From Corbicula japonica (lineage: Eukaryota; Mollusca; Bivalvia; Venerida; Cyrenidae), in the NCBI GenBank assembly GCA_038501625.1, contig JAZAYU010000011.1:12036849-12100848 (forward strand): a stretch of 64,000 bases of DNA. Reading direction: 5' to 3'. The translations under genes were made by a program, and so were the position numbers. Within the stretch, counting starts at the first letter, position 1; the number at the start of each line of letters is the position of its first letter. Positions 13,101-54,489 of this stretch are shown here, one piece after another. The notes beneath the pieces are model-generated. The model did no database searches and was not told where the DNA came from. It saw only the letters and a list, made by a program, of their open reading frames with translations.

Positions 13101-16100
13101 ATTGTTAAATTATATTACAATGAAACCAGTAATATTTACAAATTCTATTACACAAGAAAATGTGAAATTACTGAAGAAATGTTGTTCTATGTTATTTTTC
13201 TTAACCAGTGAGATAAAATTGACCTAAAAATTGCTGTGCAAAAGTATAACATAAACTAGGTAAATCGATGATTAAATCAAAAGATAGAGTATGGTAAAGA
13301 AAGAGGAAGAATAAAGAAAGACAACAAGATACCTCCACTAGAATACACGGCAGACAAGACAAACATAACACAATTTCTATGTCTTTCAACGGTCTTCTCC
13401 CAGGTCTATAGATGTCTAGGTCACTGAAATTCTGGAATTTTAGTGATTTTGAAGAATAAACAATCTTTCTACAGCAGCTAGGTTCAAAACCACAATCGTG
13501 TTTCATTATGAATGTTTCATGTATATTCCATGAAGGGCAAGCATTCCAGGATTTGTTTCCCCTTCCTGAAAACGCAGAGTAGTATTGTCCATTAACTTTA
13601 TCGTCATCATCAGAAGGGCTTTCGCTACTCGAAGAGGAGGACTCACTATCGTCACTATCTGACGATGTGCTGGTGTCACTGAAATTTCTGCTCAAATCTG
13701 TATTCGAGGGAGAGAACTCCGAGGATGTACTTGGCGAGGCCGGCACTAGCTCCTCTGTCATAGGTCGTCCAGAAAATGCAGATACTACAGATCGTCGTTT
13801 TTTTATGTTATTTTTTTTCTTTAATATTCTTCTGCCTACTGCCGGTGATTTTGCTCCAGCTGTACTGTTAGACATCTGAGAATCGGAAGATTTTGCCGGA
13901 GTTGCTGAGAAAACAAACAAAGCGGACGACGTTGGAAAATTAAATTTAGAGATAAACTCATTTGTCTTTTTGGCGCCTTGAGATGATACACTGGCTACAT
14001 TAACAGTATCAGAGAAACCTACTCGCGGGCTTGACTTGGGAAGATTATAAGATCCTTGATCTGAAGATCTAAACACCAAAGTTGACTGTCGTACTTCCTG
14101 ATTGTTAGTTGTTAATGACTTGGATGGCACTGATGCACTACCAGAAGTTGTTTCAGTGACGTCTGACAATCTGTTACCGAACCCCATAGATTTACTTCCC
14201 GTCACCTGGAAACTTTTCTTCCCGCCAAACACTGAAGATACTGATTGGGCTTTACTAACAACCTCTTTTCCCAGGCTGTTACCAATATTTGTTGTGTCCT
14301 CATCATCATCATCTTGTTTGTCAGAAGTAAATATTGTAGCAGCATCAAATGCTGATACCATTTCATTGGTTCTTGCTTTTAGTATAGATTTCATTGCTTT
14401 GTTGATGGGAGACGGTTGTTTCTTCTCAAAGTTATTACCAAAAGCAACCTGTGGTGGGCGGAACGAGAAAACCACTTTTCTCTGAGAAGTCTCTTCAGCA
14501 GGTTTGTGATAACTAGAGGTGCTTGGTGTCTCTGCCAGAATTCTGTCTTCCATTACCACATCATCAACAGTGTCTTGTTTCTGAAAACACGACTGGGTGG
14601 CAGATATATCCACTCTGGACTTCACTGCAAAAACTGAAGATCTGTTTTCACAGTTTCTGGAAGTTTGGGCTGATGGCCCAGGGAATAAGTACCCAAAAGG
14701 TACTAAGCTGCAAGATGTCTCACAAGGAGCATTGGTATCCATTTGTTGATGTCCACTGCTTTGAGAACCCAGATTTGCATTTAAACTACCAAAACATTTG
14801 AAGCCCTGCTCTTTAGCTGAAGCCACAGAAAAGCTGTTTGAAGTTTCCATCTGATGTTCTGTACTAACAGGTATGAATGTTGGAGATGTATCAAACAAGC
14901 CAGATTTTCTTGATAAATCACTGGGTGGTGGAAACAGAGGTCTAAAAGGCATGACAGGGGCACTTGATTCAGGTTTCATATTGACAGATTGTTTTCCTGT
15001 CATAAGAAAGTTTGGTACAATGCCACTCTTTCTGTTCAAAGCACACAATGCTCTAGATGTTTGTGTGAATAAAGATGAAACCATCCCCAAATTGTTTGTT
15101 GGTTTTTCTAGTGTAAATGGTGAAGAAGACAATTGTACATTTGTATCCATCTGAGGCCTGGATCCGCCAAACACAAACAGAGATGAGTTGGTACTTGCAA
15201 TACTTGATGTTACATTTGTATTCATCTGAGGCCTGCATCCACCAAACACAAACAGAGATGAGTTGGTACTTGCAATAGTTGATGTTACATTTGTATTCAT
15301 CTGAGGCCTGGATCCTCCAAACACAAATAGAGATGAGTTGGTACTTGCAATAGTTGATGTTACATTTGTATCCATCTGACGCCTTGGTCCGCCAAACACA
15401 AAAACAGATGAGTTGGTACTTGCAATAGTTGATGTTACATTTGTATCCATCTGAGGCCTGGATCTGCCAAACACAAATAGAGATGAGTTGGTACTTGCAA
15501 TAGTTGATGTAACATTTGTATACGTCTGAGGCCTGGATCCTCCAAACATAAATAGAGATGAGTTGGTACTTGCAATAGTTGATGTTACATTTGTATCCAT
15601 CTGAGGCCCGGATCTGCCAAACACAAACAGAGATGAGTTGGTACTTGCAATAGTTGATGTTACATTTGTTTTAATCTGAGGCCTGGATCCACCAAAAACA
15701 AACAGAGATGAGTTGGCACTAGCAATTGTTGATGCTTCGATTTTATCCATCTGAGGCCTGGCTCCACCAAACACAAATACAGATGGCTTGCTACTTGCAA
15801 TACTTGATGTTACATTTGTATCCATCTGAGGCCTGGATTCGCCAAACACAAATAGAGATGGCTTGCTACTTGCAATAGTTGATGTTTCGTTTGTATCCAT
15901 CTGATGCCTTGCTCTGCCAAACACAAAAACAGATGAGTTGGTACTTGCAATAGCTGATGCTACATTTGATTTAATCTGAGGCCTGGATCCACCAAACACA
16001 AACAGAGACGAGTTGGTACTTGCAATAGTTGATGTTACATTTGTATCCATCTGAGGCCTGGATCCTCCAAACCTAAATAGAGATGATTTGGTACTTGCAA

Positions 16101-19100
16101 TAGTTGATGTTACATTTGTATCCATCTGAGGCCTGGATCCTCCAAACCTAAATAGAGATGAGTTGGTACTTGCAATGGTTGATGTTACATTTGTATCCAT
16201 CTGAGGCCTGGATCCGCCAAACACAAATAGAGAAGAGTTGGTACTGGCAATAGTTGATGTTACATTTGTATCCATCTGAGGCCTGGCTCCCCCAAACACA
16301 AATAGAGATGGCTTGCTACTTGCAATAGTTGATGATACATTTCTATCCATCTTTTGCCTTGAATCTCCAAACACAAATACAGGTGACTTGGTACTTGCAA
16401 TAGTTGATACATTTGTATTCATCTGAGGTTTGGATCCACCAAACATAAATACACTTGACCTGGATGTTACATTAGAAATAACTGGTGGTTTTCTTCCAAA
16501 ATCAAACACTGGATTGCTTGCCGAGGTTAAAGTACAAACTCGATCAATGCTACTCAATGGCGGACTGTGTGCTGCAAAATTTGTGCATCTCATTCCTTCT
16601 GTACTGGATGATAATGTTGTTACTATTCCATATGGAAATAGCGAAGCAATACTTGTGCAACTAGCTCTATTTATCTCTGCACCAAAACTGGGCAAACAAA
16701 GCGGTGTTGGAAGGAGAACATTTTCAGGTACACGTCCAAATGAACTATTTGAGTCCATCATGGTAAGAGGTAATGGTGAATTTGCCCATGTGAACCCTGT
16801 ACTGGTAATAGCATCTGATCCTAGACCAGGTGACCTCATGATTAAGCTAGGATTTGCTAACACTGCTTTTGTAAAATCCAACTTTGTTAAGAGGCCAGAA
16901 CCACCTGGCTGATTATTATGTACTGTACTGCCCTGTTGTAAACTATCATGTCCTACACCCCAAGCCGATTGCATTGTAACTCTGCATATCATGATAGGTT
17001 GTGTAACCGATAGTGATAGCCTTGTCTCTGCTTGAACATTATTTTTTCTTGACTGGATTGTGAATGAGGAACCACATGAAGGTGAATGATTTCCTACTCC
17101 AGTTTTAGGAAGAACTAGAACTGACTTACAATTAGAACCAAGTGAATGGCTTATTTGATCTTTTACACTACTTGATTTTGCACTTGCAAAACTTTTAGGG
17201 CATTCTTTCACTGGAAAATGCTCAAATGACTGGACTAGCTTAGATTTTGTACAGACACAGGCAGAATGTGATGCCTGCTTATCAGTCTGTGTATCTATGC
17301 TATGAACATATGCTGAACACGTAAAACTGTTTTCATTCTTCAATGTCTCATGACAATGACATTGAGCTGGCCTATCTTGTGCTATCATAAGACACTTGTT
17401 ATTTGTGGTAGCTGGCATCAAGACATCAAGAGAGTCTGTCTGTATGCCAATCTCCTTACAGATCAATGTTTTCATGCAACATGTTTGACAAGCTACATCT
17501 TTCATTAGAACACACTTCTCCGCTTTCAGACTTCCTGGTAATGCATCCACCTGGGTGCCCTTCTCTAAAACCACTACTGATGACTTTCCCCCTTGGGTTT
17601 CCTTCCCAGAAACCACCTCTGCTGACATTTTGCCCGATGTTTCATCCACTTGAGTTCTTTTTACAGCAACAACTTCGGATGATATTTCCTCTGGTGCTTC
17701 TTCCACTGAGGTTGCCTTTGCAGCAACAACTTTGGATGTGATTACTCTTGGTGCTGCATCCACCTGGGTTGCCTCCGCAGCAACATCTGAAGTTATTTCC
17801 ACTGGTGTTACAACCACAGAGGTTTCCTTCTTGGCAATCATCTCTACCGTCATTTTGCCTGCTGATGCATCCAGCTGGGTTTTCTTCTCAACTACGAGCT
17901 CTGTTGACATTCCACTTGCAGTCACTAGATAACATTCTATTAATTTAGGTTCAGCATTTGCTTCCTTCACTTCACTGCTCTCCTCAATATCTAAAGATGC
18001 CGGGTCATGTTGCGGAATGTTTTCATCGGAATCATAACCCGACTCCTCCCAACAGTTGTGAAAGAAGCTCTCTTGTGAGCAGACAGTGTCAACTTCAGTC
18101 ACATAGCCCGACTTCTCATCCGAATCAGTGTTGGTCGAGCTGCTATCTGTCTGGACAGAAGCAACTGACTGAGTACTACCACTTGATACAACTTCTTTAA
18201 CTAGAGAAAATACAGTGACAGAAAGGGGAAAGAGAAGAGATGATTAGATGGTATTTCAAGAAAAACTAGAATTATCACTGAAAGTGATTAAATACCCCCA
18301 CATGTATGCTTGATAATTGAACTGGGAATGCTTCGAATCAATGGCATAATGTGTCCCACTTTCAATCCAAAGTGTCGTCTTCACAGTAGCCACATATTCA
18401 GCAAGTTTCATCACAATATCTCATTCCTTCTAAATTTATTGAGCAGAAATGGTTTAAATATGTTAGTAACAGTGGCCTTTATCTAACTTTTATCTAAGAA
18501 CTGTGTGCCAAACATTGTTTATGAGAAATCATCCAGAAACCATTTTTTCTATTTTTAGTAACAGTGACCTTGGCCCCATCAGGCCCAATTTCAATACCAA
18601 GTTTCGTCTTCACAGACACTACCTATATAGCAATTTTCATCCCAATATCTCATTCTGAACCAAAGATATTGAGCATACAGTTTATTTTCTATTTTTAGTA
18701 ACAGTGACCTTGACCCCACAGGCCTTGAATCCCAAAAGTCACCTTCACAAAAACCACCAATACACCAAATTTCATTTAAGAATCTCATTCCAAGCTATAG
18801 TTACCGAGTGGAAACAAAGTTTTGAAGTTTAAATAACAGTGACCTTGATCTTGAACCCACAGGCCCCAAAGTCAAACCTAACCTATATCTTGTTATGTTA
18901 CATCTGTGTCCCAAAAAATAATTAAATCTATGAAGTATTTCATGAGTTATAGTCCAGAAACAATTTTTCTTTTTTAAGTTACAGTGACCTTGACACTGAC
19001 CCCTCAGGCCCCAAAGTCGAACTCGACCTGTATCTTCTGATATTACATATATGTACCAAAAAAGGATTTAATCTGTGAAGTTTTTCATGAGTTATCATCT

Positions 19101-28100: not shown

Positions 28101-31100
28101 ACCAGATGGGTGCTTGAAGAACTTCAGGGGTTTAGGGGTCTGGCAAGCAGCACAGCTGTTACTTTCCAGCTTATTCTGCACCAAGCACACTTCACACTCC
28201 CAGGTACCAGCAGAGGGCTTTAACTTTGCAAACAAGTCATCAGACTTCTTAGAATCTGTGGCATTATTGCTGGACTTATCTGAAAGAGTGAAACGTTTAG
28301 TAATGTTGCATCATACATTTGGTTAAGCCCCATTAAAATATCTAATGTTAAGAAACATGCCCAGGACAGGCAAAGGCTTAGCAATTGTAATTTAGACTTA
28401 TCTACAAGAGTGAAAACATGTTGAGTAATGTCACTTCACATTATTGCTTTAGTATCTGTCCATTAAAATGAGTAACGTTAAGACACATGCCAGACATAGC
28501 CAAAGGCTTAGCAAATATAATTTATTTGTAACAATTTACAATTATAATTTAGGGTAGTCAGTATTCTCTTTAGCTTACTTTTCTATGAAATCAGGTAAAA
28601 TCTTGTTTACTTATAGGAAATGCAACATATACATATATTCAGGGGTGAAGAAATTTTTAAAGTAGCAGAATCAATCCATTTAGTAGTTTGCTGGTCTTAG
28701 GTCCTCCCCTCAGTGGGGATCAAGAGGTCAAGGCAAAATGAAATCAGATGTTAAACTAATGCTGTATTGGAATATTGGGAAACCAAACTTTATCAAGTTC
28801 ATTTCAACAGAGATAAATAATAAATAAAATTGATTAAAGTTTATTCTTGCTGCTGCAGGAAAAGTATCTGGGTAAAGATACTTAAGTTACTGGGTGAATT
28901 AACCAGCTCAAAGCCAATTAATACTACCATGTATATTGCTATAACATACCACTAGATTTGGGTGTCCTGCATGCCCCACAAGTCAGGTCATCTTTCTTGT
29001 TCTGGATAAGACAGGAACTACATATCCAGTTACCAGGCTGTATTGTGCTCACCAAGGGACTACTTGAGAAACCTAAATGAAAACAATAGTTATCACGTCA
29101 CTTCTGCAATTATGGTACACAAGGAATTTTTTTCACATATGGAACAAAGATAAGCTAAAACAAATCTTAACACAAACTAAATTTACTAAGTTAGCCCAAG
29201 CAATGACATTCAACAACCGCCACTCCCAAATTATTTTAGCAAACAGATGGTACACAAACTTGCAAACAATCCTATAAATAAGACTCAAAAATTCAATTAA
29301 TAATTACTACTCATCCATAGAAATTATTAAATGTAAAATCTTATTAAATTCTCAAATGACTATTTTTTATGAATGCCAGTTTATGCATAAACTGTACAAA
29401 GAAATTTTAATAAAAATGACCGAAGCATGTCTTCAATTGGTAGTTTCTTTACATATTTCTCTAAAGCTTTGCCACATTGCAGTAATGGCTGCTGAGACAC
29501 CATTATATATAACTCATTAACTTGTATGCCTCGTGCTCACATTACACTCCTTGTGAAAACAAGACTGCCATGTACACCTACCTTGTGACTTTTTCTCTCC
29601 CGGCTTTGCTGTCTGACATGCAGCACATTTTTCAACACCATCTTTGTTGTTTACAAGACATACTTCACATGACCAGCCTGATGTCTTGAACAGGGAACTC
29701 AGTGGAGCGGCTGTAGAGGTTTGACTTCCTGCACCAGCTGGCTTTGCTGACTGACAAGCCGCACACTTATCAACATTGTCTTGATTGTTCACTAAACATA
29801 CACCACAGTTCCAGCCTGATGGTTTGAACAATGTACTCAGGGCTGGTGCCCCAGATACTGTGGGCCCTTTGGCGGCATTACCACTGGAAGGCTTAGAAGA
29901 ATTACATGCCAAGCACTTCCCCACTTCTTCCTTATTATTGACCAGGCATACACTACAAGTCCAGCCTGATGATTTAAACAAAGTGCTCAGAGGTGTGGCG
30001 TTGGAGTTCTGGGTGGTCCCTGTGCCAGAGGTAGTGCTAGGTGCAGACACAGACTTGCTTCCACCTCCGAGAATATCCATCACACTGCCCTGCTTCAGTT
30101 CTGATGCTGCTTGAAACCCTCTTTCAGTTGGTTCAGAGGGACCTAAAATGCACCAATCACAGGAAGACATCAGTTTGAAGTCATTAACATGGTCTGAATC
30201 TATTTTCTTTAAACTGGTACAGAAAATCTATGCCAAATAAAAATTCAGTGCAGTATTCAATGTTTCCCCTGTGAAGATAGCTTTATTCACACTCTAATTC
30301 GTAAATATAAAATGTTTTGCGTTAAACTGCAAAATGTTTAGTTTGCAGTTTTGCGAAATTGTACCCACCCTTTAGAGTTATTCCAAAACAAGTTATGTTC
30401 AGTCACCATTAACAAAACGTGCTAAACATTGAGTTACCATTAATCTTTGGTTTTGGTTTAGGGGCTGTTGAGAAGTTGAACTCCATCTTGCTGCTAGGCG
30501 GGGCCAAGCCAAAGAGTGTCCCATCCACTTTCTTAGCTTCTACTGCTGGTTGCTTCTGGACACTAGATGTCACTTCATTGCTCTCTTTCTGACCAACATG
30601 AATTGGTGAACTAAATTGGAAACCCTGTAATATCCAGCTGCACATTTATATATCTGCACAATTACATTGTAAACGATTACTGCAGATTTATGGCTTGTAC
30701 AAAGTAGAGTTCATTAAGTTCCAAGTACTCAAAATGACACTAAATTACTTAATATTGTGGTCAATGCTTGAATAAGGTAATTTCTAATTAGGAGTAGGGC
30801 TGTCATAATTCACTGGTGCTTCATAGGACATTCAACTTGACATAAAATCAATTTACTCATTAGAATTGCTGTAAGGCTTGTTTTCTAAGATATAACTTGC
30901 AACATAAATACTATCTTCTTCAACTGAATTCTTTTCACAGCATAATTTGATTTATTATCCAGTACTTACTGTGTACACAATAAAAGTTTTGTTTTTAAAA
31001 ATGACAGAGAAAATAGTTATCTATGTATCTTGTATTCATATATTTAAATGGGAAGTTTTTTATTGTCCTCCAATACATTGACATTATTTCAGGAAAATAC

Positions 31101-34100
31101 AGTGGGGCTCCGCTATATCGCGAAATCCAATATAACGCGGTCGACCCTTGGACCCCGTTTTTTTTCATAAAAGATAGTAAAATTCTATCAATGGCCATTT
31201 TTTGTATATTTGGAAAGGCAAAAAAAGGGAAGTAACAACGTTAATACCGCGTTAATCGATAAAGACAATGACGCTCGTTCATTAACGTACCGAGAATCGT
31301 TAAAACAATTGTAAAATGTTTCTTTATGAACTGTTGATTGTTTCCTACGTTTATTACAATATCAAACTGTCATAAATTTGTTAAGTAATAAATTGTTGTA
31401 CAAACACTGGGGCACCTAATCACGTACGCGAAATGGTTACTGAATGGTTGTTTTTCGCACCTACTGCAGATAGCATGACAAAGGTGTTTTATGTTGTGAA
31501 TTGGCTTCTAATTTGAGAAGCTCATGCCTACATTTGACATGTTTTACAATATTATTTTAGAAATGATGATTGAAGATTCAAACAATAAAGATTAAAACTT
31601 CAAGAGTATTGTTTTCATTCAAAACAGCGTACAGGTAAAACATATACACGAGTTCCGCATTAGACAAACGCCCGCAGTATAAACTTTTGCGAGTTAAATT
31701 CACAAAGTAATAATTTTATAGCACCTGTTAGATAATAACAAAACAACATGCAAACAAATGATTTATTTTCAATAACCGATAAAATGTTACGAGTAATAAA
31801 TGTACGGAACTAATAATAGCATAAGTACTTTGTCCCGGATCCGATAATAACACGATTTGAGGGGATGGACCCCACGGACCGCGATATAGCAGAGCCCCAC
31901 TGTACTGCTCAAAATCTTGAAATAACACTTTCTATCTATACATTTTTTATGTTATTTAATTTCTAGAGTATTGAAATATGTTTTGAGTATATCTTAAACT
32001 GTAACACTATCAACAGATCATTAACACTGCTTTAAATTTAGATAAAGTATTTATGTGCTTGCAAATTTGAGAATTCAAATCGCAAGAGAGTATTTTACTA
32101 TAACAAATTTCAGCATAGAACTACAACATACTGTGTATTTTTCTGGAGATGGTGGCTTGTTTTCAGGTAAATGTTCTAGGATAGGGGAGGAAAAGCTGAA
32201 CTTCAGACCAGGGTTCACAGGTGACACAGTTTTCACTGGCATCTGATTGGTTGATTTCCCAGAAGTCTCTGTTGTGAAGCCAAATTTCTGGACTGGTTCC
32301 GCAGGTTTTGACTGAGCTGTTGTTGGGACTGTGAAGTTAAATTTTGGCATGGAAGTCACAGGTAGTGTAAACTGGGTCTGAAGATCAGGAATAACAACCT
32401 GTAGAGAACAAAACAGGTTTTCTGTGAATTTTTTGCACTTGGGTTACACCATAAACAACCATTATTGCCCTTGGGTTACAACATAAACAACCATTAAACA
32501 CTGCAAATTTCTTTATAAGGAAAAAACATACAACTGTATATAAAATATTGACCTGGATTGCTGTTTTGAAGAAAGATTTTAATCGAATTATAAACACTGT
32601 CACAAAAAATTTCAATGTAAAACTTGACCATAACTTTCAGACTTTGGTCACATAATTACGCTTTTGTCAAAATCATGTATACTGAAAGTATGAAGAAGAA
32701 ATTGCTAAGTTATAGACGATGTTTAAATTTTTTGACTGCCTGGCAATGGGTAAAGTAAGCCATTTGTATAAGGCAACACAAAAACTACTTCAATCTGGGC
32801 CCAACAGAGACAAGGTCATGAGCTCACACTAAAACTGGAGACTGGTCTGCAATATCAGTTATATAATCTTGGGAAGTGATCGTTTTGAAGTTAATTCCAT
32901 ATTTACTTACTGTATCATCTTCCTCCAATGTTGGCTTCACTGAGGCACTCCCTTTATGATATGATTTGTCTCTCCTCATTTTTCCGGATGCAATGGCCGG
33001 CTCAGGGTTGAGCAAAACCGTGTCCTGTCTCACAGGCATCCCCATCCCCTTTGATGGATCCTGTGAACAGCAAGTTTCTATTTGTTAGTTTTTGCTAACT
33101 TCAGTTTGACCATGATTTGGTCGTAATTAAAACTGGCAAATCAGACTTTAAGCACACATGTGACAAACTTGTCAACTTATCTGTGAGCACAATTGAAAAT
33201 ATGACCATTCTACCACACAAACAACTTCTGTAGATATGAGTTAATTACAGGGTAAAAGACAGCTGCAGCAATACAAGTTACAGTAGAACAAAGATGTATT
33301 ACTGCAGAGACAAGGTCATGAGCTCACATGACGACAGTGAAAGCATGAACAGTGTTTGCACCATCTAGCACATGGATGAATCACTAAAGAACACAGTTCA
33401 ACAACAACAAACAAGAGGGCCATGATGGCCCTATATCGCTCACCTGAGTACAAAAGTACTCTCAGCTTGTGGTTTCAGACAAGAAGATTTTTAAAGTTTT
33501 TTCTATTCAAGTCTATATAAAATGAAGTGACCCCTGGGGCGGGGCCAATTTTGACCCCTGGGAAATAATTTGAACAATCTATGTAGAGTTCTACTAGAGG
33601 ATGCTAAATGCCAAATATCTAAGCTCTAGGCCTTGTGGTTTCAGACAAGAAGATTTTTAAAGTTTTTCCTATATAAGTCTATGTCAAATGAAGTGACCCC
33701 TGGGGCGGGGCCAATTTTGACCCCAGGGAAATAATTTGAACAATCTTTGTAGAGTTCCACTAGAGGGTGCTAAATGCCAAATATCTAAGCTCTAGGCTTT
33801 GTGGTTTCAGACAAGAAGATTTATTAAGTTTTTCCTATATAAGTCTATGCAAAATGAAGTGACCCCTGGGGCGGGGCCAATTTTGACCCCAGGGAAATAA
33901 TTTGAACAAACTTTGTAGAGTTCCACTAGAGGATGCTAAATGCCAAATATCTAAGCTCTAGGCCTTGTGGTTTCAGACAAGAAGATTTTTTAAGTTTTTC
34001 CTATATAAGTCTATGTAAAATGAAGTGACCCCTGGGGCGGGGCCAATTTTGACCCCAGGGAAATAATTTGAACAATCTTTGTAGAGTTCCACTAGAGGGT

Positions 34101-37100
34101 GCTAAATGCCAAATATCTAAGCTCTAGGCTTTGTGGTTTCAGACAAGAAGATTTTTTAAGTTTTTCCTATATAAGTCTATGTAAAATGAAGTGACCCCTG
34201 GGGCGGGGCCAATTTTGACCCCAGGGAAATAATTTGAACAATCTTTGTAGAGTTCCACTAGAGGGTGCTAAATGCCAAATATCTAAGCTCTAGGCTTTGT
34301 GGTTTCAGACAAGAAGATTTTTAAAGTTTTTCCTATATAAGTCTATGCAAAATGAAGTGACCCGTGGGGCGGGGCCAATTTTGACCCCTGGGAAATAATT
34401 TGAACAAACTTTGTAGAGTTCCACTAGAGGATGCTAAATGCCAAATATCTAAGCTCTAGGCCTTGTGGTTTCAGACAAGAAGATTTTTAAAGTTTTTCCT
34501 ATATAAGTCTATGTCAAATGAAGTGAACCCTGGGACGGGGCCAATTTTGACCCCAGGGAAATATTTTGAACAATCTTTGTAGAGATCCACTAGAGGGTGC
34601 TAAATGCCAAATATCTAAGCTCTAGGCCTTGTGGTTTCAGACAAGAAGATTTTAAAAGTTTTTCCAATATAAGTCTATGCAAAATGAAGTGACCCCTGGG
34701 GCGGGGCCAATTTTGACCCCAGGGAAATAATTTGAACAAACTTTGTAGAGTTCCACTAGAGGATGCTAAATGCCAAATATCTAAGTTCTAGGCCTTGTGG
34801 TTTCAGACAAGAAGATTTTTAAAGTTTTTCCAATATAAGTCTATGTAAAATGAAGTGACCCCTGGGGCGGGGCCAATTTTGACCCCAGGGCTATAATTTG
34901 AACAATCTTGGTAGAGGACCACTAGGTGATGCTACACAGCAAATATCAAAGTTCTAGGCCTTGTGGTTTCAGAGAAGAAGATTTTTAAAAATTTCACGTT
35001 CAAAATCTATTTTTAACCTCTGTGACCTAGATAGGCAATGGACTGGAACCATTTGAACAATTTTGGTAAAGCTTCATGCAAGTAACATTCCTGCCAAGTT
35101 TCAGCAAGATTGGCCCAGGAGTTCAGGAGAAGAAGTCGTTTGAAGAAAAAGTTGACGACGGACGCACGCACGCACGGACAACGGACATCAGGCGATCACA
35201 AAAGCTCACCATGAGCACTTCGTGCTCAGGTGAGCCAAAAAACAAACAAACTTCCATGACACAATGCCATGTATATTGATAAAGTACATGTATATGTCTT
35301 TTCCATTTTGTGCTATATTTGTTACATAACATTGTATGTTGTAAACTGTAATGTATCCAAACATTAATACTCATTACAGTTAAAATAACATTAATAACCA
35401 CAGAAAACAGAGTAAATATACCTGACTTGTTGAAGGTTTTGGCTGACCTACTGAGGCAAAGCTGACCTGTCTATTACGGCTGATGGAAGCCTGTGCACTG
35501 ATGTTCAGCTTCTGCTTAGGTGGGCCTCTGGGAGTTGTGCGGGTATCTCGAGAGAAGAATGATGGACTCTCTGTCCACTGCCTAGGGACCATTGGTATTC
35601 TCTTCGCATCCTGAAATGAACACCATCATTGTTGACTAAGGTATGTAATAAATGTCTACACCTTCCTTCCATGCCCTTTATGTACACTGTTCTGATTTTA
35701 ATTTGTAATTTATTAACTATCCTATTAGATTCTCAATAAACTTACTAATAACTAACTTTAATACTTAACATCTTTAGGTAACACACACTCTATTAAGGCT
35801 ACTTCCCAGTTAGTAACTGAACAATTTGTTCTGAAAAACTTATAAAGGGAGATGTTTCATTCTATTTAATTTTACATTTCTTATTTCATATGCTTTATTT
35901 GTATTTCATCTCTGTCATTTTTTTATCTTTTAATTTTCACTTACACATAGCAGTTTTGCATTTAGTTGTACAGTGTTAAATATATATTGTTAATTATACT
36001 ATCAAAATCTTTCCCAGCTTAATTTCCACAGGTGTCCAATGTAAACATGCACATACATTGAGAGGTGTAGGCATTCTGTCAAGAGCCTCTAAGATTCTCT
36101 TGGCTGTAGAGCTGGTCACTGCTTCTTGGTTAGGAGCCAGTCTTGGTTTAGCTTTCATGAAAGCCTTCACTGGCACCGACAGCTGAAACAAAATCAAATA
36201 CAGTACGCTTATTTATTTTTCACAGATATTTTCATACTTTATGGGTTGTATGTACAATAGTGTATATTCTGATCAGTCTGCAGAGATAGCAAATTGAACA
36301 AAAATGTTACTTAGGGTCTTATAGGGTTATGATACAAGCATTTTAACGAATGACCTTTCCTAAATTCACTAACCACAGTTGATGAAGCACCAGTCCAACT
36401 TTTACATTTAGTAAAGTTACTTTGTCCTTCAGTGTTTTGAAAAAATCAGATGGTCACAATCAAATCAAGAAAATTAAGTCATTTCGATGAAATTTTGGAA
36501 ACAACAAAAAGAATTTTTTAACTTTGTATGAATTGAGTATTTAATGCAATACTGTAGGATTCTCTGCATCTCTAATGTTAACTATCGGCCATAAACCCGA
36601 TTTGATTTTCTTTTGATTTTGTTTACTTGTTCATTCCAGGCTTGTCTTGTTTTATAACCATGCCTTTCAGGCTCATCAATTATCTTGTGTCTTCTGGTCT
36701 AACCTAACATATTACACATTTTATGAGTAAACAATTTCCACACACCAAAAAAGTATCCTCAGTGATCACAAGCATATAATCAACATGTTAATATTGTTAC
36801 TCTGCAACAATATTCCAAAATTTTATGACATATGCAGTGGTTCATAACCTATCAAAGTGGATGAACAAAACAGAATGGCAGCTATTTCACTTAAAAATAA
36901 CTGGGTGAAACATCTAACACCGTACTGCCCTAGTTCTTACGAGACAAAGGTCTACGAACAATACATTGTATCAGACCGAACAGATGATTCGGAACTGGTA
37001 CATTCACACATGGGATATTAGTCAAATGCATGAAGTAACTGATTAAACTTGGGGAGAGATCTTACTCTGCTGGGAAGAGATTGGTTAAGATCAACTTTCT

Positions 37101-47246: not shown

Positions 47247-48101
47247 ACAAAGTCGGTCAATGCCAAGGGAGAGCACTCATCTAATACGTCTTATCCGGAC
47301 TTGTTCGTGTTATTGGAAAGCTAGGCTGCTTCACTGCAATTGTAGCAAAGATAGATAGCAGCTATTTGGTTCTGTGTCAAGAAGCAAGCTGGAGACATAT
47401 GCGGACATGAACAGACCTGGGATCACTCACACGCATAAGTTTAATTAATTCTAAATATTCCCATTCATACATGAAATAATGAGTTGCAATCGGCCACTAT
47501 TGTAAATAAAAAGGAAATATATTATGTTGTTAAATTATGTAATGCTCATCGTCGGAAACATATGGCCGATTCTATAACGCTACTCTCCATTGCGATGAAT
47601 AGACAGCAAAGATAAAAAAATCAACCGTGAGTTTCTGACACATTGTTTTTTTAAGTATCTTGCCATATGGTGCTTTCATATCATTTTTAAAGGTTATGGA
47701 AGATGATCCTAAAAAAGGAGAAAAATTAAGGGGTGTACAAGAAAATACATCCTGTATATCATAGCAGATGCCTGAGGCAAACAGGAGATACATCATAAGG
47801 TTGATTAAACAATACTTAAACACCTCTGCTGAAAGTGATATGAGCTTATCAGGAAAACTGAGTGCGGGGATAAGTATACCTTTTACAGCCACGACGGAGC
47901 ACATACGACGCTTAGAAACTGTTATATTGAGATAGATTAAAAGGTAACTTTGAAAGGAACCGAACTCGACATAAATGGAAATATTGCAGGCTCAGCTGAT
48001 TTAACCTGCTCATTAACAATTGAATGCTAACGAATTTTACTGTTCCTACCAGGTAGCCCTGTGCTGAGCAACTTGCAATCAACTTGGAGACTGCACAGAC
48101 A
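47247..48101. other. Region upstream of NUP153, no gene seen
   Basis: About 850 bases between the NUP153 promoter motifs and the inverted-repeat element at 48108. Short open frames on the minus strand run into the element and are not supported. Before that insertion this region would have joined directly to 54426. Confidence 0.5.
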
Positions 48102-48482
48102 GATCCCACCCTGACGTAACGTTACCGGTTCAAGTGGTGGTGTAACGATGGTTTTGTGGTTGAATAACGCCGGTTTTGCGGTGTTTAGAGGGAATCCGGT
48201 AAGTAAAATCAAAAAAGTATTCGACATAGTTTAATATTTTCAATTAAAAAGTGGCCTATTTGGTACCTAGACGACTGGGCTATCAATGCGTGCAGTCCAA
48301 ATACATCATAATCATGTACGTTTTTCAAACATTCAATGATAGTTCGACCATGTTGCTGTAAAATACAAAACCGGAGCTAAAATAGCCACAATTCTCATTG
48401 TTAAGCGAATGTGGAATGGAACAAACGCTTCGAGTTAGTATGTTTATGCATAAGGTAACTAGTTTTAACATTTCTTAACATT

Positions 48483-49190
48483 TTAACTCCCAGGCTATCT
48501 TCTGCGTCTTCTGTCCATATTCCGGCTAAATTAAATACTTTCAAATACATGCAACCGTCAATTTGTTTATCTCCAATAAATTTATCTTCGGCTACTTCCG
48601 TCAATGTGACCGGTTTGCAAAGTGCACAATGTACCCATTTATTTAAAAATAATTTAAAAATAAAATTGTCACCTATCAAATCTCATATTCTTAAAAAATA
48701 TAACATTTCCACGCCTATAAAACTAAACGACGGAAGACGCAGATCGTATCCTTTTATATACAAGTGTAATTTAAAGAGGTGTAGGTGCTGTAGTTTTTTA
48801 AAATGTAGCTCGACTATAAAATCAACTGTTAATGGAAGAACTTTTTCAGTAAATATTAATTCAGATATTGATTGACAAACAGATAATATAATTTATGTTT
48901 TAACTTGAAACGCTTTAAATTGTGGCATTCAATATGTAGGACAGACGGGACGCCCTTTAAAAACACGTTTTAGTCAGCACTGTTCTAAAATACGAAACAA
49001 TAATAAAATCAATACATATTTATATAAACATTTTAAACAATCAGGCCACACTTTAAAACACGTTAGTATTCAACCTGTGGAAAAAATTATATTTGATAAC
49101 AGTGCTTCAAGAGCATTTAAAATTAGAGCAAGACTTGTTTCAGAAGATAATTGGATAAAAAACTACAAACTCCTTATCCACTTGGTTTAA
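48483..49190 (+). pseudogene. Naiad segment 1: zinc finger and GIY-YIG endonuclease
   Basis: In one frame: an N-terminal part, the finger CNLKRCRCCSFLKC (about 48774-48815), then TGA at 48873-48875 and TGA at 48906-48908. The endonuclease core follows: GIQYVGQTGRPLKTRF (48924 on), the SQHCSKI helix, and the SEDNWIK end. GIY-YIG enzymes nick target DNA for priming. Both TGA codons lie in the Cys-rich lead just before GIQYVG. The frame breaks in an A-run near 49156-49161, where one more A would rejoin it to the WIKKLQTPYPLGLN end. Confidence 0.8.
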
Positions 49191-50107
49191 ATGATAATAT
49201 TTATCAAGAAGGCAACATTTCAAAAAACCCTGATTTTGACATTTTTGGATTGCTTCAAATACGAAAACGAAAATCGAGGTCACATGGGATAAGGACTAAT
49301 GGTAACATCAAAAGAAAATCACGTGTTCATTGTTCTATTCATGACCTTCAAAATATTTTAAAACATTCTGGAAGACATGCTATGCTGTCGCGTTTAGCTT
49401 ATCTTTCTATTTCAAGTTTACAAAAAGTTGATAAGGAAGCCGATGATATTGTTATTAGAACTCATCCACTTTATGAGGTTGCAAGCCTTACTCAGTGTTA
49501 CACTCGGCATGTTCTAAGACCACATATTGACTTGGAATCTGATCACCAAAGACATTTCCTTAAAATTTCATTTTTAAATAAAGGCATAGATTTTATTGAC
49601 CTTCCAAGTATATTTAAAGATAAAACTGTTGAATCGGCTATACCTAATTATTTCAAGAATACTGAAACACCCAGCGTTTGTTATAAATATAACAAGCCTA
49701 ATAGAAACACAATTTTCAATTACAACAAAATTACCTCGGATTTACAGATTGTTGAAAACACACCATTATCTTGAGACTGTTCTAATTCAAAATTTTGCTA
49801 TCAACCTGCCGGTCATATCATTACAGGGGATCTAAATGTTATCAAAGACTTTAGAATCCGCAATTTAATTTCAAAAGGTCCAAAATACAGAATTCCATCG
49901 TACATCGACTTTATTACCTGTCGTGCGGAAATTGCAGAGTCTTTAAACTCTTTTTGCAATAAATGGTGTAAACGAGAACATGCTGAGCCTAATGCTCTTT
50001 CAAACTGGAAAAAACAAATATTCAAAATAATTGACTCTCGTATATCCTTCTATAAAAGAAACATAGCTTTACTACCACCTCGACCTCGTTTTAACTTTCG
50101 CATTTGA
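49151..50107 (+). pseudogene. Naiad segment 2: linker and start of reverse transcriptase
   Basis: Starts LQTPYPLGLND, the usual end of the GIY-YIG unit, then a basic linker (RKRKSRSHG, NGNIKRKSR). After a TGA at 49772-49774 comes FCYQPAGHIITGDLNVIKDF, a conserved lead into the RT core, as I recall from related elements. It closes at a TGA (50105-50107) after a one-base loss near 50098. Confidence 0.75.
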
Positions 50108-50682
50108 AAAAAGGTATTCAAGATTTTCACAACAAATTTGTTTTAACACCTGCTGATAAGGCTTCAAATAATGTTATTATAGTGTGACGTATACACTATA
50201 TAAATGTTCAAACTGAAGAGCTTGATAGCACTAATGCTTATACACTGACTTCTTCATCTGAGAGTGATATTGTTACTGCACACACTCTACAAATTACAAA
50301 ATTTAGAATTAGTGTTGAGCCTAAACAAGACAAAGTACCTACTATGTATTGGTTGCCTAAAATGCACAAAACACCGTACAAAGCAAGATTTATCGCTAAC
50401 TCTAGTTCTTGTACTACAACAAAGTTATCCGTGCTCTTAACATCTTGTCTTACAGCTATAAAAAAACATGTAATTAGGTATTGCGAAAAAGTTTTTGAAA
50501 CTACTGGCAAAAATTTATTTTGGTCTATAAAAAATTCAAATGACGTTTTGAAGAAACTTAAATCAAATAATTTTCAGGCGTTCTGTTTGTCTACATATGA
50601 TTTTTCTACCTTGTATACTTCTCTCCCTCATAATTTAATAAGAGACAAGCTAACCAGTCTCATTGAAAAAAACTTTTGCTAG
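50100..50682 (+). pseudogene. Naiad segment 3: reverse transcriptase palm, first part
   Basis: Reads FVLTPADKASNNVIIV, TGA (50185-50187), then YWLPKMHKTPYKARFIANSS and CLSTYDFSTLYTSLPHNLI. KxHKxP-x-RFI and the DFS/TLYTSLPH block are RT motifs of Penelope-like elements. Frame lost in an A-run near 50667-50673, which has one A too many. Confidence 0.82.
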
Positions 50683-51658
50683 AGAAAATAAAACATTTAT
50701 TGCTTGTAATGAACATAGGGCATTCTTTACAGATGGTTCTTATGATAATTATACTTCATGGACCTGTCAAGACCTTATCCAGGCGCTCACATTTTTATTG
50801 GATAATATTTATTTGAGATTTGGTACCTCTATTTATAAACAAGTAATAGGCATTCCAATGGGTACTAATTGTGCACCCCTTGTTGCTGATCTGTTTTTAT
50901 ACTGTTATGAAAGAGATTTCATGTTATCTCTTTCTACCGAACATTAAGATGATATTATTACAGCTTTTAACAACACCTCGAGGTACCTTGATGATTTATT
51001 AAATATAGATAATAACCATTTTCCATCACTGGTTAATAAGATTTATCCTAAAGAACTACAGCTTAACGAAGCGAACACTTCAGAAAAGCAAGCAAACTTC
51101 CTTGATTTAAATCTATCCATCGAAAATGGTTACGTCACTACTAAAATTTATGATAAAAGAGATGATTTTAATTTTAATATAGTAAATTTTCCGTTTCTAG
51201 ACGGCGATGTTCCTCGTGCAACTTCTTACGGGGTTTATATCTCACAGCTTGTTCGCTTTTCAAGAGCTTGCAACGATGTGAATGATTTCAATGAACGTAA
51301 TCTTTGCATTACAGAAAAACTTTTAAAACAAGGTTATCGGTATCACAAATAAAGGAAAACCTTTTGCAAGTTTTATCGCCGATATCCAGATCTAATTCAT
51401 AAATACAGCTGCAGTTTAAAATCACTATTGCAACAAAGAATTTCACAGCCAGTTTTTTATGGAGATTTAATTTATAAACTTAAGAAGATAAAAGGCGATG
51501 TTAATTTCTCCCGGTTATTCGTAAAAACCATCTGTAAATTTAAAAAGAAAGGTTACCAACATGATATTTTACAGCGCTCTGCAGGCCTGGTGATTAACCC
51601 ATCTACAGTTGATCATTATGCTTACCTCTTTGGTTGCACGACGGTGGCAGGGGTGTAA
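50663..51658 (+). pseudogene. Naiad segment 4: RT catalytic core and thumb
   Basis: Contains IACNEHRAFFTDG, GIPMGTNCAPLVADLFL, the catalytic RYLDDLL (YLDD at 50984-50995), KQANFLDLNL, NFPFLDGDVPRATSYG and VYISQLVRFSRACNDVNDF. Two TAA codons interrupt it, at 50945-50947 and 51350-51352, and the frame ends at 51656-51658. All the RT signatures are intact between the stops, so this copy looks young but inactive. Confidence 0.85.
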
Positions 51659-52772
51659 GAGTTTATGAAAGTTTATGGGGAAATCTTTTCTTAAAAGAAC
51701 CTAAAAGCTCGATTTGTTTCTTTTATCCCTGTCATCGTGTTCTTGCTGATTTTACTCCAGGTGCTCTGGTCTCGGAAAGATCATTGAGTACCCGCCCTTT
51801 GGCTTTGCAATTCTATTAAATTCTTATGTTTATATGTTTGTATGCTTTTGCATGCAACATTGTTGAGCTGATGGGTGGGTTGGAATTATTTCACCAAGAC
51901 AATTTGTACTTGTTTTGTGATACGAGAACCTGTTGGGGCAAGTGTGAGGTTGGTGCACCCTAGAACCTGGTTTAAACCCCCAGTGGCAATTTGTTTTGCC
52001 ACTGACCGTTCCAAGGCGGTATCCCCAAAGGTTCTCTTGTTTATTAATTGTTTGTGGCGTCCTATTTGAATTGACATACATATATAAAACATGCACTCTC
52101 TCTATCTTCCTCTCTTCTTTTTCGCTGCGTGGGGAGGCTGTGTTTTTTGAGTGTGGCGATTCCTGATATGCATATGTTGCTTTTTTTGGATGATCAACGC
52201 ATATATTTGTACTTATAAACGGTTTTCCACAGTCACACGCAGTTACGTTGGTTCATGTGGTGTATGTGTAACGCAAGTGTGGTTCAAGTGGTGTTTAGAA
52301 AACTCTTTTTGGCCTCTTAGAAGTTAAAAGAATGTCTTTTTCGTTGATTACGTTAAAATACACGTAGTTTGCCAATATTGGTATTGTTTGCTAATCTCTT
52401 AAAGATTAAGGTTCTGTTTGGTCTTTAAGTAGATTATATCATAAATCGGTTACATCAAATAGCCAGTCGTGTCGGCAATCCTGATGAATTTAAATTTAAA
52501 GGCTCACTAAGAGCCTCCCGCGTAAAACAAAATTTTAAGAACCCGGTAGACTGAGGCGGCGAGGGCGAGGTTTACATCACCTAAGGTTGCATATACTGCA
52601 TACATGACATCGGAAAGTCGTAAGATAGAAATATTTCATTTGGGTGTTAAATTGATTTATTGTATATTCAAGAGTCAATTATATAAAACATGTTCATTTA
52701 GTTTCTTCCGCTATTTCTAATTCTTTTCTTAGTACATAGATCTAAAATCCAATGAAATTATGTAATATAAAA

Positions 52773-53582
52773 TTATACAGTTCCTACTTTCACTTGATGA
52801 GGTACTACAAAACTTATCAGTATTGTAATTATAATTGTATCTTTGTTCCTATGCATTGAAAATAAAACTGCATGTTTCATCGAATTGTTTATCCGTTTCA
52901 TTTCATTTGTTTTGGTATTCGGTACGGCAAAATTAATTCTTGATGTCTGTGGGTCAATACAGCGCGTGGTATTTTCAGTATTATCAACAATATTTCTCGG
53001 ACCACTCATAAAATATAGGAATTTGGCATGAAATAAGCGGTATCCTGTTTTCCAAAAACGTTTTGAAGTTGAACTGTAAGTCATTTGTGTTGTTGTTCTA
53101 CAGTTATAAAATTTAACAGTATCTAAGAACAGGAGAAGTGCGATGTTTGTAAGTGGGTATGAAGTAGATGCAACTTGGTTCATAAATATGCGGAATACAT
53201 CCCAGAGTTCAGCAGCAACTAGCTCGTTATTAAACATTTTGAAAAGATTGCAGTCATCGTCACAGTTAACAGTAATTTCTGTGCTACCTAAGTCTTCCCA
53301 TTCCTCATGGTCTGCATGCTCGTGTTGTATAGATGGTGGTGTGCGAGTGCGCAAAGGCGATGCAGTAATTTTCTTCGCATACAGCAATGGTGATGCGATC
53401 CTGACGCGTTTCGAGCGTGGTGTGCAACCTGATGGGGTTGATGCTGGAGATATAAATCGGGACTTCTTACTACTTGTACCGGTGCCTTTGGAGATTTTTT
53501 GAAAGTCATGTCGAGGTTTGGTAAACCTGCTTACAAAGGGAACCTTTTTCTTGTACAGCGTAAGGTGTGAGCGTTTCCTCAT
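52773..53582 (-). CDS. Unrecognised 269-residue transposon protein
   Basis: The only sizeable frame in the interior of the 6.3 kb inverted-repeat element. Basic N-terminus (RKRSHLTLYKKK, RFTKPRHDFQK), a Ser/Thr-Pro-rich linker with SPSTPSG-type motifs, a short acidic stretch, then a conserved-looking block NIALLLFLDTVKFYN ... SKRFWKTGYRLFHAKFLYFM. A splice acceptor (TTTATTTCAG) lies just upstream at 53592, so the ATG may be internal to a larger spliced gene. I suspect an accessory or transposase-like role but recognise no DDE triad or nuclease domain. Possibly complete, possibly a 3-prime exon. Confidence 0.55.
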   Translation of the reverse strand: MRKRSHLTLYKKKVPFVSRFTKPRHDFQKISKGTGTSSKKSRFISPASTPSGCTPRSKRVRIASPLLYAKKITASPLRTRTPPSIQHEHADHEEWEDLGSTEITVNCDDDCNLFKMFNNELVAAELWDVFRIFMNQVASTSYPLTNIALLLFLDTVKFYNCRTTTQMTYSSTSKRFWKTGYRLFHAKFLYFMSGPRNIVDNTENTTRCIDPQTSRINFAVPNTKTNEMKRINNSMKHAVLFSMHRNKDTIIITILISFVVPHQVKVGTV

Positions 53583-54489
53583 ATCAATGCCTGAAATAAA
53601 ATTGTTGTGTTTAATGCAGTATTATCAGTTAATTGCATATCCTATTTGTATGTGTGTATGCCATTGTAAAACATTTCAACATTATCGCTTTTATAATCAG
53701 ATGAATTCGTTTTTCATTTGCAGAATTACTCAAACCTTTGCATGTAAATGTCCGGTATCAACATGGCCATCTTGTGTCAAAACATGTGACAAAAGACGAC
53801 ACGACGAAAAACTTAAGATAGTAGTTTTATATTTCGAAGATGATACGGAAAAAAGAATAGTATTATGAAAAAAAAACAACAATCAAATTGACTTTATATT
53901 TAACAAAAACTTTTCTTTTTCGTAAGAAAAATAGTTTTCTAAACACCACTTGAACCACACTTGCGTTACACATACACCACATGAACCAACGTAACTGCGT
54001 GTGACTTTGAAAAACCGTTTATTAGTACAAAAATATGCGTTGATCAACCAAAGAAATGCTAAAACTAGTTACCTTATGCATAAACATACTAACTCGAAGC
54101 GTTTGTTCCATTCCACATTCGATTAACAGTGAGAATTATGGCTATTTTAACTCCGGTTTTGTATTTTACAGCAACATGGTCGAACTATCATTGAATGTTT
54201 GAAAAACGTACATGATTATGATGTATTTGGACTGCACGCATTGATAGCCAAGTCGTCTAGGTACCAAATAGGCCACTTTTTAATTGAACATATTAAACTA
54301 TGTCGAATACTTTTTTGATTTTACTTACAGGATTCCCTCTAAACACCGCAAAACCGGCGTTATTCAACCACAAAACCATCGTTACACCACCACTTGAACC
54401 GGTAACGTTACGTCAGGGTGATCCCCAGCCGTAATATTTTTGCCAACCGGTCGTCTCCCTACAACTCCAATCTTTAACTTTTTGACACA

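Follow-up and report, generated by a model that had tools for sequence, protein, structure and literature searches.

Four in-frame TGA codons at conserved cysteine positions very probably specify selenocysteine in a Naiad-type retroelement family of Corbicula japonica

The window analysed here, a stretch of 64,000 nucleotides of Corbicula japonica DNA, carries on its forward strand a copy of a Naiad-type Penelope-like element (48477..52187) whose coding sequence contains four in-frame TGA codons. At the level of the family, these codons very probably mean selenocysteine and not stop, because nearly all sister copies keep them and relatives have cysteine at the same places. We hold with high confidence that this is a young, high-copy Naiad family in which the four UGAs at cysteine columns are read as selenocysteine by the host machinery by means of one SECIS hairpin at the stop codon, and that the copy in the window is dead. 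The window copy is truncated, frameshifted and stopped, so that only the family would encode a selenoprotein. The insertion of selenocysteine itself, and the action of the hairpin at 51657-51724 as a SECIS element, are what we infer from the sequences described below.

TGA codons in the window copy and its sister copies

A preliminary description, made from the letters of the window alone, had placed TGA codons at 48873, 48906, 49772 and 50185, with in-frame coding resuming after each. All four were present, in the contexts SDID-TGA-QTDNIIYVLT-TGA-NALNCGIQYVG, TPLS-TGA-DCSNSKFC and NNVIIV-TGA-RIHYIN. A further TGA at 50105 had been left out, correctly, as it is a by-product of a frameshift. 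The first two codons share one reading frame, the third lies in a second and the fourth in a third; this spread arises because the window copy carries frameshifts, located near 49150-49190, 50104-50107 and 50650-50680. Two in-frame TAA codons are also found, at 50945 and 51350.

We searched the genome (1.07 Gb in 1630 contigs) for sister copies, and alignments from 27 loci revealed that TGA is nearly fixed at the four sites, being present in 16/16, 16/16, 26/26 and 27/27 alignments at sites 1 to 4, respectively. The two TAAs of the window copy were shared by 0/32 (50945) and 0/30 (51350) alignments. These counts agree with the earlier proposal that the TAAs are separate, ordinary damage and that the TGAs are not random decay. 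Sister copies with ordinary cysteine codons at the sites, which the preliminary description had named, together with the lack of a SECIS element in the family, as what would speak against selenocysteine, were not found in these alignments. Nor was there a cysteine-only copy when the genome was searched with a cysteine-type relative (P0029) and the best 46 of 15,051 candidate places were scored: all 46 hold three to five in-frame TGAs, with exactly four in 42 places, five in three and three in one. One TAA or TAG is also held by 5 of these 46. Because only the best-scoring places were scored, older copies are under-represented in this sample. A second set of 12 copies, drawn from these best-scoring places and overlapping the first set by two places, showed TGA at sites 1 to 4 in 11/12, 12/12, 12/12 and 12/12, respectively; the exception at site 1 is a TAA in one copy (L041).

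Five loci (L004, L009, L010, L016 and L028) possess a single unbroken frame of 1084-1088 codons, free of TAA and TAG and ending at a TAA, in which the only TGAs after the first methionine are the four under study. Another locus (L017) is 5'-truncated like the window copy; its frame also holds the four TGAs, additional ones being confined to the flank. The remaining 21 of the 27 loci are shorter or broken. In the three copies with five TGAs, each extra TGA is private and stands opposite a leucine, arginine or tryptophan of the query, which is what decay looks like. A fifth selenocysteine column, for which these copies were the candidates, is ruled out by the same observation. The cleanest internal control in the data is this contrast: TGAs at cysteine positions are shared, and those elsewhere are private. 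The agreement among sister copies is in part shared descent, because the copies are young and near-identical.

We also counted the other relevant codons in five copies. Four copies of the main family each contain 31 ordinary cysteine codons (TGT or TGC) and 6 TGG codons, and the fifth contains 30 and 6. The coexistence of these codons with the TGAs indicates that TGA is not simply a cysteine or tryptophan codon here.

Conservation of cysteine at the TGA columns

To place the TGAs on the protein family, we searched a protein database with the element protein, in which stops and frame breaks were written as X, and aligned the query with 120 listed relatives out of 402 found at E <= 1e-3. In the query numbering, TGA 1 (48873..48875) is column 109, TGA 2 (48906..48908) is column 120, TGA 3 (49772..49774) is column 409 and TGA 4 (50185..50187) is column 547. 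The preliminary description had regarded all four as likely cysteine positions, and the alignment bore this out: among the matches listed, 92 of which were counted as far relatives, those with a residue at the column had cysteine in 56/58, 59/59, 91/91 and 92/92 cases, respectively. Tryptophan occurred in one far relative at column 109 and in one at column 411, again among the matches listed.

Thirteen of the 1036 query positions are cysteine-rich columns. The probability that four random codons would all fall on such columns is about 1.5e-8, and it is about 4e-5 when the choice is limited to 142 codons, namely the four TGAs and the 138 that a single substitution would turn into TGA. The recurrence of TGA in sister copies is nevertheless the strongest evidence, above these statistics.

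The four columns differ in their surroundings. Three of them lie in or next to conserved groupings of cysteines, namely the N-terminal set, the pair that leads into the GIY-YIG domain and a CxC motif in the linker, while column 547 is a lone cysteine at the start of the reverse transcriptase part, after NNVIIV. Column 120 is the first cysteine of the pair that precedes IQYVG. Column 409 is the first position of CxC; the second, column 411, is an ordinary cysteine codon in the window copy, and the two columns are cysteine in 91/91 and 90/91 far relatives, respectively, among the matches listed. In a structural model of the relative P0029, columns 109 and 120 are predicted to flank the first GIY-YIG strand, the former just ahead of beta-1 and the latter at its end, and column 547 comes after the strand that opens the reverse transcriptase part.

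When 346 relatives were fetched, those of at least 42% identity showed tryptophan at columns 109, 120, 409 and 547 in 3/3, 3/4, 8/50 and 8/27 cases, respectively, compared with one tryptophan in all at the nine other cysteine columns (column 775, 1/134). We read the tryptophans at the four columns as TGA translated by genetic code table 4, a reading that rests on the behaviour of gene callers and not on the DNA of the relatives. A second protein search with query residues 1-409 found 219 relatives, and the 120 listed were 51-93% identical to the query. Among these listed matches, 68/120 predicted proteins ended at residue 408, 37/120 at residue 546 and 15/120 elsewhere. The end points come from local alignments; where up to 11 residues (mostly 0 or 2) at the end were left unaligned, they were counted ungapped. 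The lengths accepted by the search, 0.55 to 1.75 times that of the query, bias it towards fragments, so that these proportions are not frequencies; this limit does not generate the exact end points 408 and 546. No close relative open across all four columns was present among the 120 listed of the 402. One relative of 53% identity (P0003) has cysteine at columns 409 and 547, and starts at residue 191.

To follow the state of column 409, we built a FastTree phylogeny of 169 rows (184 covered the region, 16 of unclear state were dropped and the query was added), for which long branches were flagged. In this tree, all 73 rows that stop at column 409 fell within one clade of 114 rows, alongside 41 cysteine rows, and the query was placed in a clade of 39 rows that all stop there. 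The distribution of stop and cysteine requires a minimum of 18 changes, at least 8 of them on well-supported branches; shuffled labels required about 55, and 0/500 shuffles were as low.

Some relatives are filed under prokaryotic names. Among GTDB contigs, a distant Naiad of 29% identity was found on NYSS01000008.1 (L001:2045-4856), filed as a Planctomycetota MAG, which is probably eukaryotic contamination, and one short fragment was found in a Thioglobus MAG. No relative was found in the viral contigs scanned. Other relatives are filed as 'symbiont of Lucinoma myriamae' (P0206) and Candidatus Thiodiazotropha (P0269, P0311). Both names belong to symbionts of lucinid clams, and we take these entries to be host contamination of MAGs.

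Identity and limits of the element

The main sister alignments span 48477-52190 and are about 98-99% identical. Past 52187, the sequence differs in 6/6 copies compared. Upstream of 48477, the sisters share sequence (7/7 compared) that is missing from the window copy, which is therefore 5'-truncated. Elsewhere in the genome, full units of about 4190 bp are arranged head to tail, with a spacing of 4190 bp on one contig (C1093) and 4185 bp on another (C247).

The element has split a repeat of 494 bp. The left part of this repeat (48107..48476), which is target and not element, is 97.8% identical to 54420-54051 on the other strand, and the right part (52181..52310) is 94.6% identical to 54056-53927 on the other strand. 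The two copies of the repeat are thus inverted, 1.6 kb apart and 95-98% identical. The inverted copy (53927..54420, reverse strand) is uninterrupted and therefore gives the empty site. We also considered an element of 48107-52310 with 53927-54420 as an internally deleted Naiad; this was ruled out, as the sister copies show that the outer parts are the 494-bp target repeat.

Three other features of the window were recorded. An open frame of 1680 amino acids occupies 13201-18243 on the reverse strand, with 17.6 copies of a 75-bp repeat at 15136-16451; its repeats may be nucleoporin FG repeats of the Nup153 kind, but in Pfam they score as Kelch (PF24681, 63.6 bits against a cut-off of 50). The adjacent frame at 29517-30227 encodes RanBP zinc fingers, and we read this gene as nucleoporin-like. 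A tandem array at 33466-34989 consists of 9.2 copies of a 166-bp unit with 95% matches.

Within the element, a GIY-YIG endonuclease domain is N-terminal (48909..49190; Pfam PF01541, E 2.5e-5, 24.9 bits against a cut-off of 22.6), and the frame breaks near its end. It precedes the reverse transcriptase part (50188..51655, with RYLDD), which is itself broken by the last of the frameshifts and by the two TAAs; precomputed annotation gives several relatives both PF01541 and PF00078. The genuine end of the frame is the TAA at 51656..51658, which is a TAA in 30/30 sister alignments, and a relative of 94% identity (P0241) ends at the same residue. An AlphaFold2 model of P0029, a full-length cysteine-type relative 39% identical to the query, had a mean pLDDT of 84.8. 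Its top 14 PDB matches were all telomerase reverse transcriptases (best E 6.7e-11, TM-scores 0.25-0.33 of the query), and no GIY-YIG entry was present among its best 50 structure matches. The model of this relative points to a telomerase-related reverse transcriptase. Searched by sequence against the PDB, the C-terminal piece returned only two weak, unrelated chains.

Naiad-type Penelope-like elements have a CCHH motif in the endonuclease, are not known to carry a hammerhead ribozyme and possess an insertion-in-fingers domain. Columns 120, 125 (cysteine), H144, H161 and H167 of the query align with C124, C127, H146, H160 and H166 of P0029, and are candidates for the residues of the CCHH motif. 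Rfam gave 4 matches to E 5 in 47800-53600, a region that covers one truncated copy, and none of them was a hammerhead family. The order with the endonuclease first, the CxC linker, the telomerase-like reverse transcriptase and the tandem units fit a Naiad-type Penelope-like element.

A candidate SECIS element at the stop codon

The preliminary description had called for a search for a SECIS element in 51659-52184, behind the coding sequence, and in the family. A SECIS_1-like hairpin was indeed found at the stop codon, right where that proposed stretch begins, with its core retained in most copies; its score lies under the Rfam gathering threshold. In a cmscan of 51656-52420, RF00031 (SECIS_1) scored 19.4 bits against a gathering score of 35, with E 0.68 over 4227 families, or about 1.6e-4 for the single family by division. 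SECIS was not listed by the Rfam scan of the longer region 47800-53600 (E up to 5), and none was listed in a 10-kb background stretch.

The candidate (51657..51724) has a form-2 shape, with AUGA at 51665-51668, AAA at 51681-51683 and GA at 51711-51712. The final two bases of the stop codon fall within the match, and AUGA starts six bases past the stop. The predicted fold consists of an open AUGA/GA core, a 9-pair helix containing a single A-A mismatch, the AAA and a ministem of six pairs, and the apical AA lies at 12 nt. The hairpin is no more stable than its shuffles (z +0.59). We also scanned for a strict pattern, AUGA followed by 10-13 nt, AA, 8 or more pairs and GA, with thresholds set when the candidate had already been seen. 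Across both strands of the window it occurred once, at the candidate, and shuffling of the 3' UTR reproduced it in 11/2000 cases. Distinct from the candidate is an extended, base-paired hairpin region at 51924-52036, also in the 3' UTR, which is visible on inspection of the letters as well as in the fold; the whole of 51656-52310 has a fold z of -2.9 relative to 20 shuffles.

Across copies, AUGA is present in 43/45 and GA in 44/45 alignments, of which at least two pairs come from one and the same place. In a diverged copy (L020:940-835), base pairing persists at three altered positions of the main helix, and the ministem and outer pairs are lost; a diverged copy at L020 scored 14.9 bits for SECIS_1 (E 3.4). 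The core is gone in a second piece of L020 and in L025, which reads AUAA and gave no Rfam SECIS match.

In relatives with a longer C terminus, all 40 matched tails have a methionine followed by methionine (35), threonine (3), asparagine (1) or isoleucine (1), so that the letters AUGA are forced at the aligned place. The UAA stop would there supply the AA at the right distance. Several relatives, including P0001, P0245 and P0250, end in a conserved SDSM[M/T/N/I]xxx tail ahead of the stop, and P0345 has Val-Met instead at this tail position. The tail appears to encode the AUGA core within the coding sequence, and the SECIS and the stop codon may overlap in this subclade.

Host machinery and proposed decoding

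Four genes for tRNA-Sec scored over the cut-off (78.8 bits) in the same genome, and the anticodon is TCA in the two that were checked. In a control on 14 known genomes, this family gave a signal in 14/14 and exceeded the cut-off in 5. SepSecS was represented by seven collinear pieces over the cut-off on one contig (C7), and the control gave a signal for it in 3/14 genomes.

An intact copy would be transcribed into a full-length mRNA and translated from an ATG upstream of the point at which the window copy is truncated. A single frame would then run from this start to the TAA, with the four UGAs decoded as selenocysteine. The SECIS at and just past the stop codon would recruit the selenocysteine factors, and decoding would be carried out by tRNA-Sec and SepSecS, whose genes were found, together with SBP2 and EFSec, which are assumed.

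Alternative explanations

Three other readings of the TGAs were weighed. If they were random nonsense mutations in a dead retroelement, the state of the window copy, with two TAAs and three frameshifts, would be in keeping with them. However, ordinary decay would have to place TGA at the same sites in every sister alignment of the first set when the TAAs are private, give exactly four TGAs in nearly all of the best-scored places, and end the listed relatives of the second protein search at the same columns; the TGAs that do stem from decay, in three copies, are private and at non-cysteine positions. We attach next to no probability to this explanation. A reading of UGA as cysteine or tryptophan, through an altered code or ordinary near-cognate readthrough, might draw on the tryptophans that some database translations show at these columns. 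These are best explained by table-4 gene calling, and the far relatives have cysteine, not tryptophan. Ordinary codons for both residues stand beside the four TGAs in the five copies counted, and the host has a tRNA-Sec with a TCA anticodon, all of which leaves this reading highly improbable.

The UGAs might instead be real stops, so that the family would make several short proteins or would be non-autonomous and expand on the machinery of another element. A family can amplify with fixed stops, its copies are indeed near-identical, and the SECIS support is modest. On the other hand, all four shared stops fall on cysteine columns, the frame is otherwise open over its full length at five loci, stop and cysteine alternate at column 409 within one clade, and a cysteine-only copy is missing from the best-scored places. 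We therefore consider real stops a slim chance, if a better one than the two preceding readings, and retain selenocysteine as the meaning of the four codons in this family.

More tentatively, a large and old clade of retrotransposons may need the host selenocysteine machinery for a single multidomain protein, with selenocysteine and cysteine exchanged repeatedly, only at the four columns, and with the SECIS core inside the coding end in part of the clade. If this is true, selenocysteine would either benefit the enzyme or act as a brake, coupling transposition to the selenium available from the host. The family itself offers a natural experiment on the exchange of selenocysteine and cysteine and a direct route to testing the selenium dependence of transposition.

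Comparison with known systems

Selenoproteins are few per genome and are normally host genes. With its many near-identical copies, the element may rank with the most numerous selenoprotein reading frames of its genome, and standard annotation will probably label such copies pseudogenes or fragment them, as was seen in the relatives. Craig, Yushenova, Rodriguez and Arkhipova reportedly described in 2021 the independent evolution, in spider and clam Naiads, of selenoproteins with several selenocysteines. Those elements reportedly share with the present family an N-terminal GIY-YIG domain, a CxC linker and a telomerase-like reverse transcriptase, as well as several selenocysteine codons, a tandem arrangement and a high copy number. 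That our family is a further case of the selenoprotein Naiads reportedly already published is well supported. The present analysis documents exactly which four columns are involved, a SECIS candidate located at the stop codon, and stop and cysteine replacing one another repeatedly at column 409. Craig et al. 2021 (Mol Biol Evol 38:5005-20) is cited in PMC11167929, PMC10941475 contains both 'Naiad' and 'Penelope-like', and a literature search by titles and records returned no paper on selenocysteine in Penelope-like elements.

Other systems share parts of this arrangement. Penelope, Poseidon and Neptune, Penelope-like elements with a C-terminal endonuclease, also combine a GIY-YIG domain with a telomerase-like reverse transcriptase and form tandem units, whereas here the endonuclease precedes the reverse transcriptase. 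Selenoprotein P and other host selenoproteins with several selenocysteines likewise use multiple UGA codons for this residue, as the present family is inferred to do, and have their SECIS in the 3' UTR. In contrast to selenoprotein P, the putative selenoprotein described here belongs to a multi-copy mobile element, and its single SECIS candidate starts at the stop codon.
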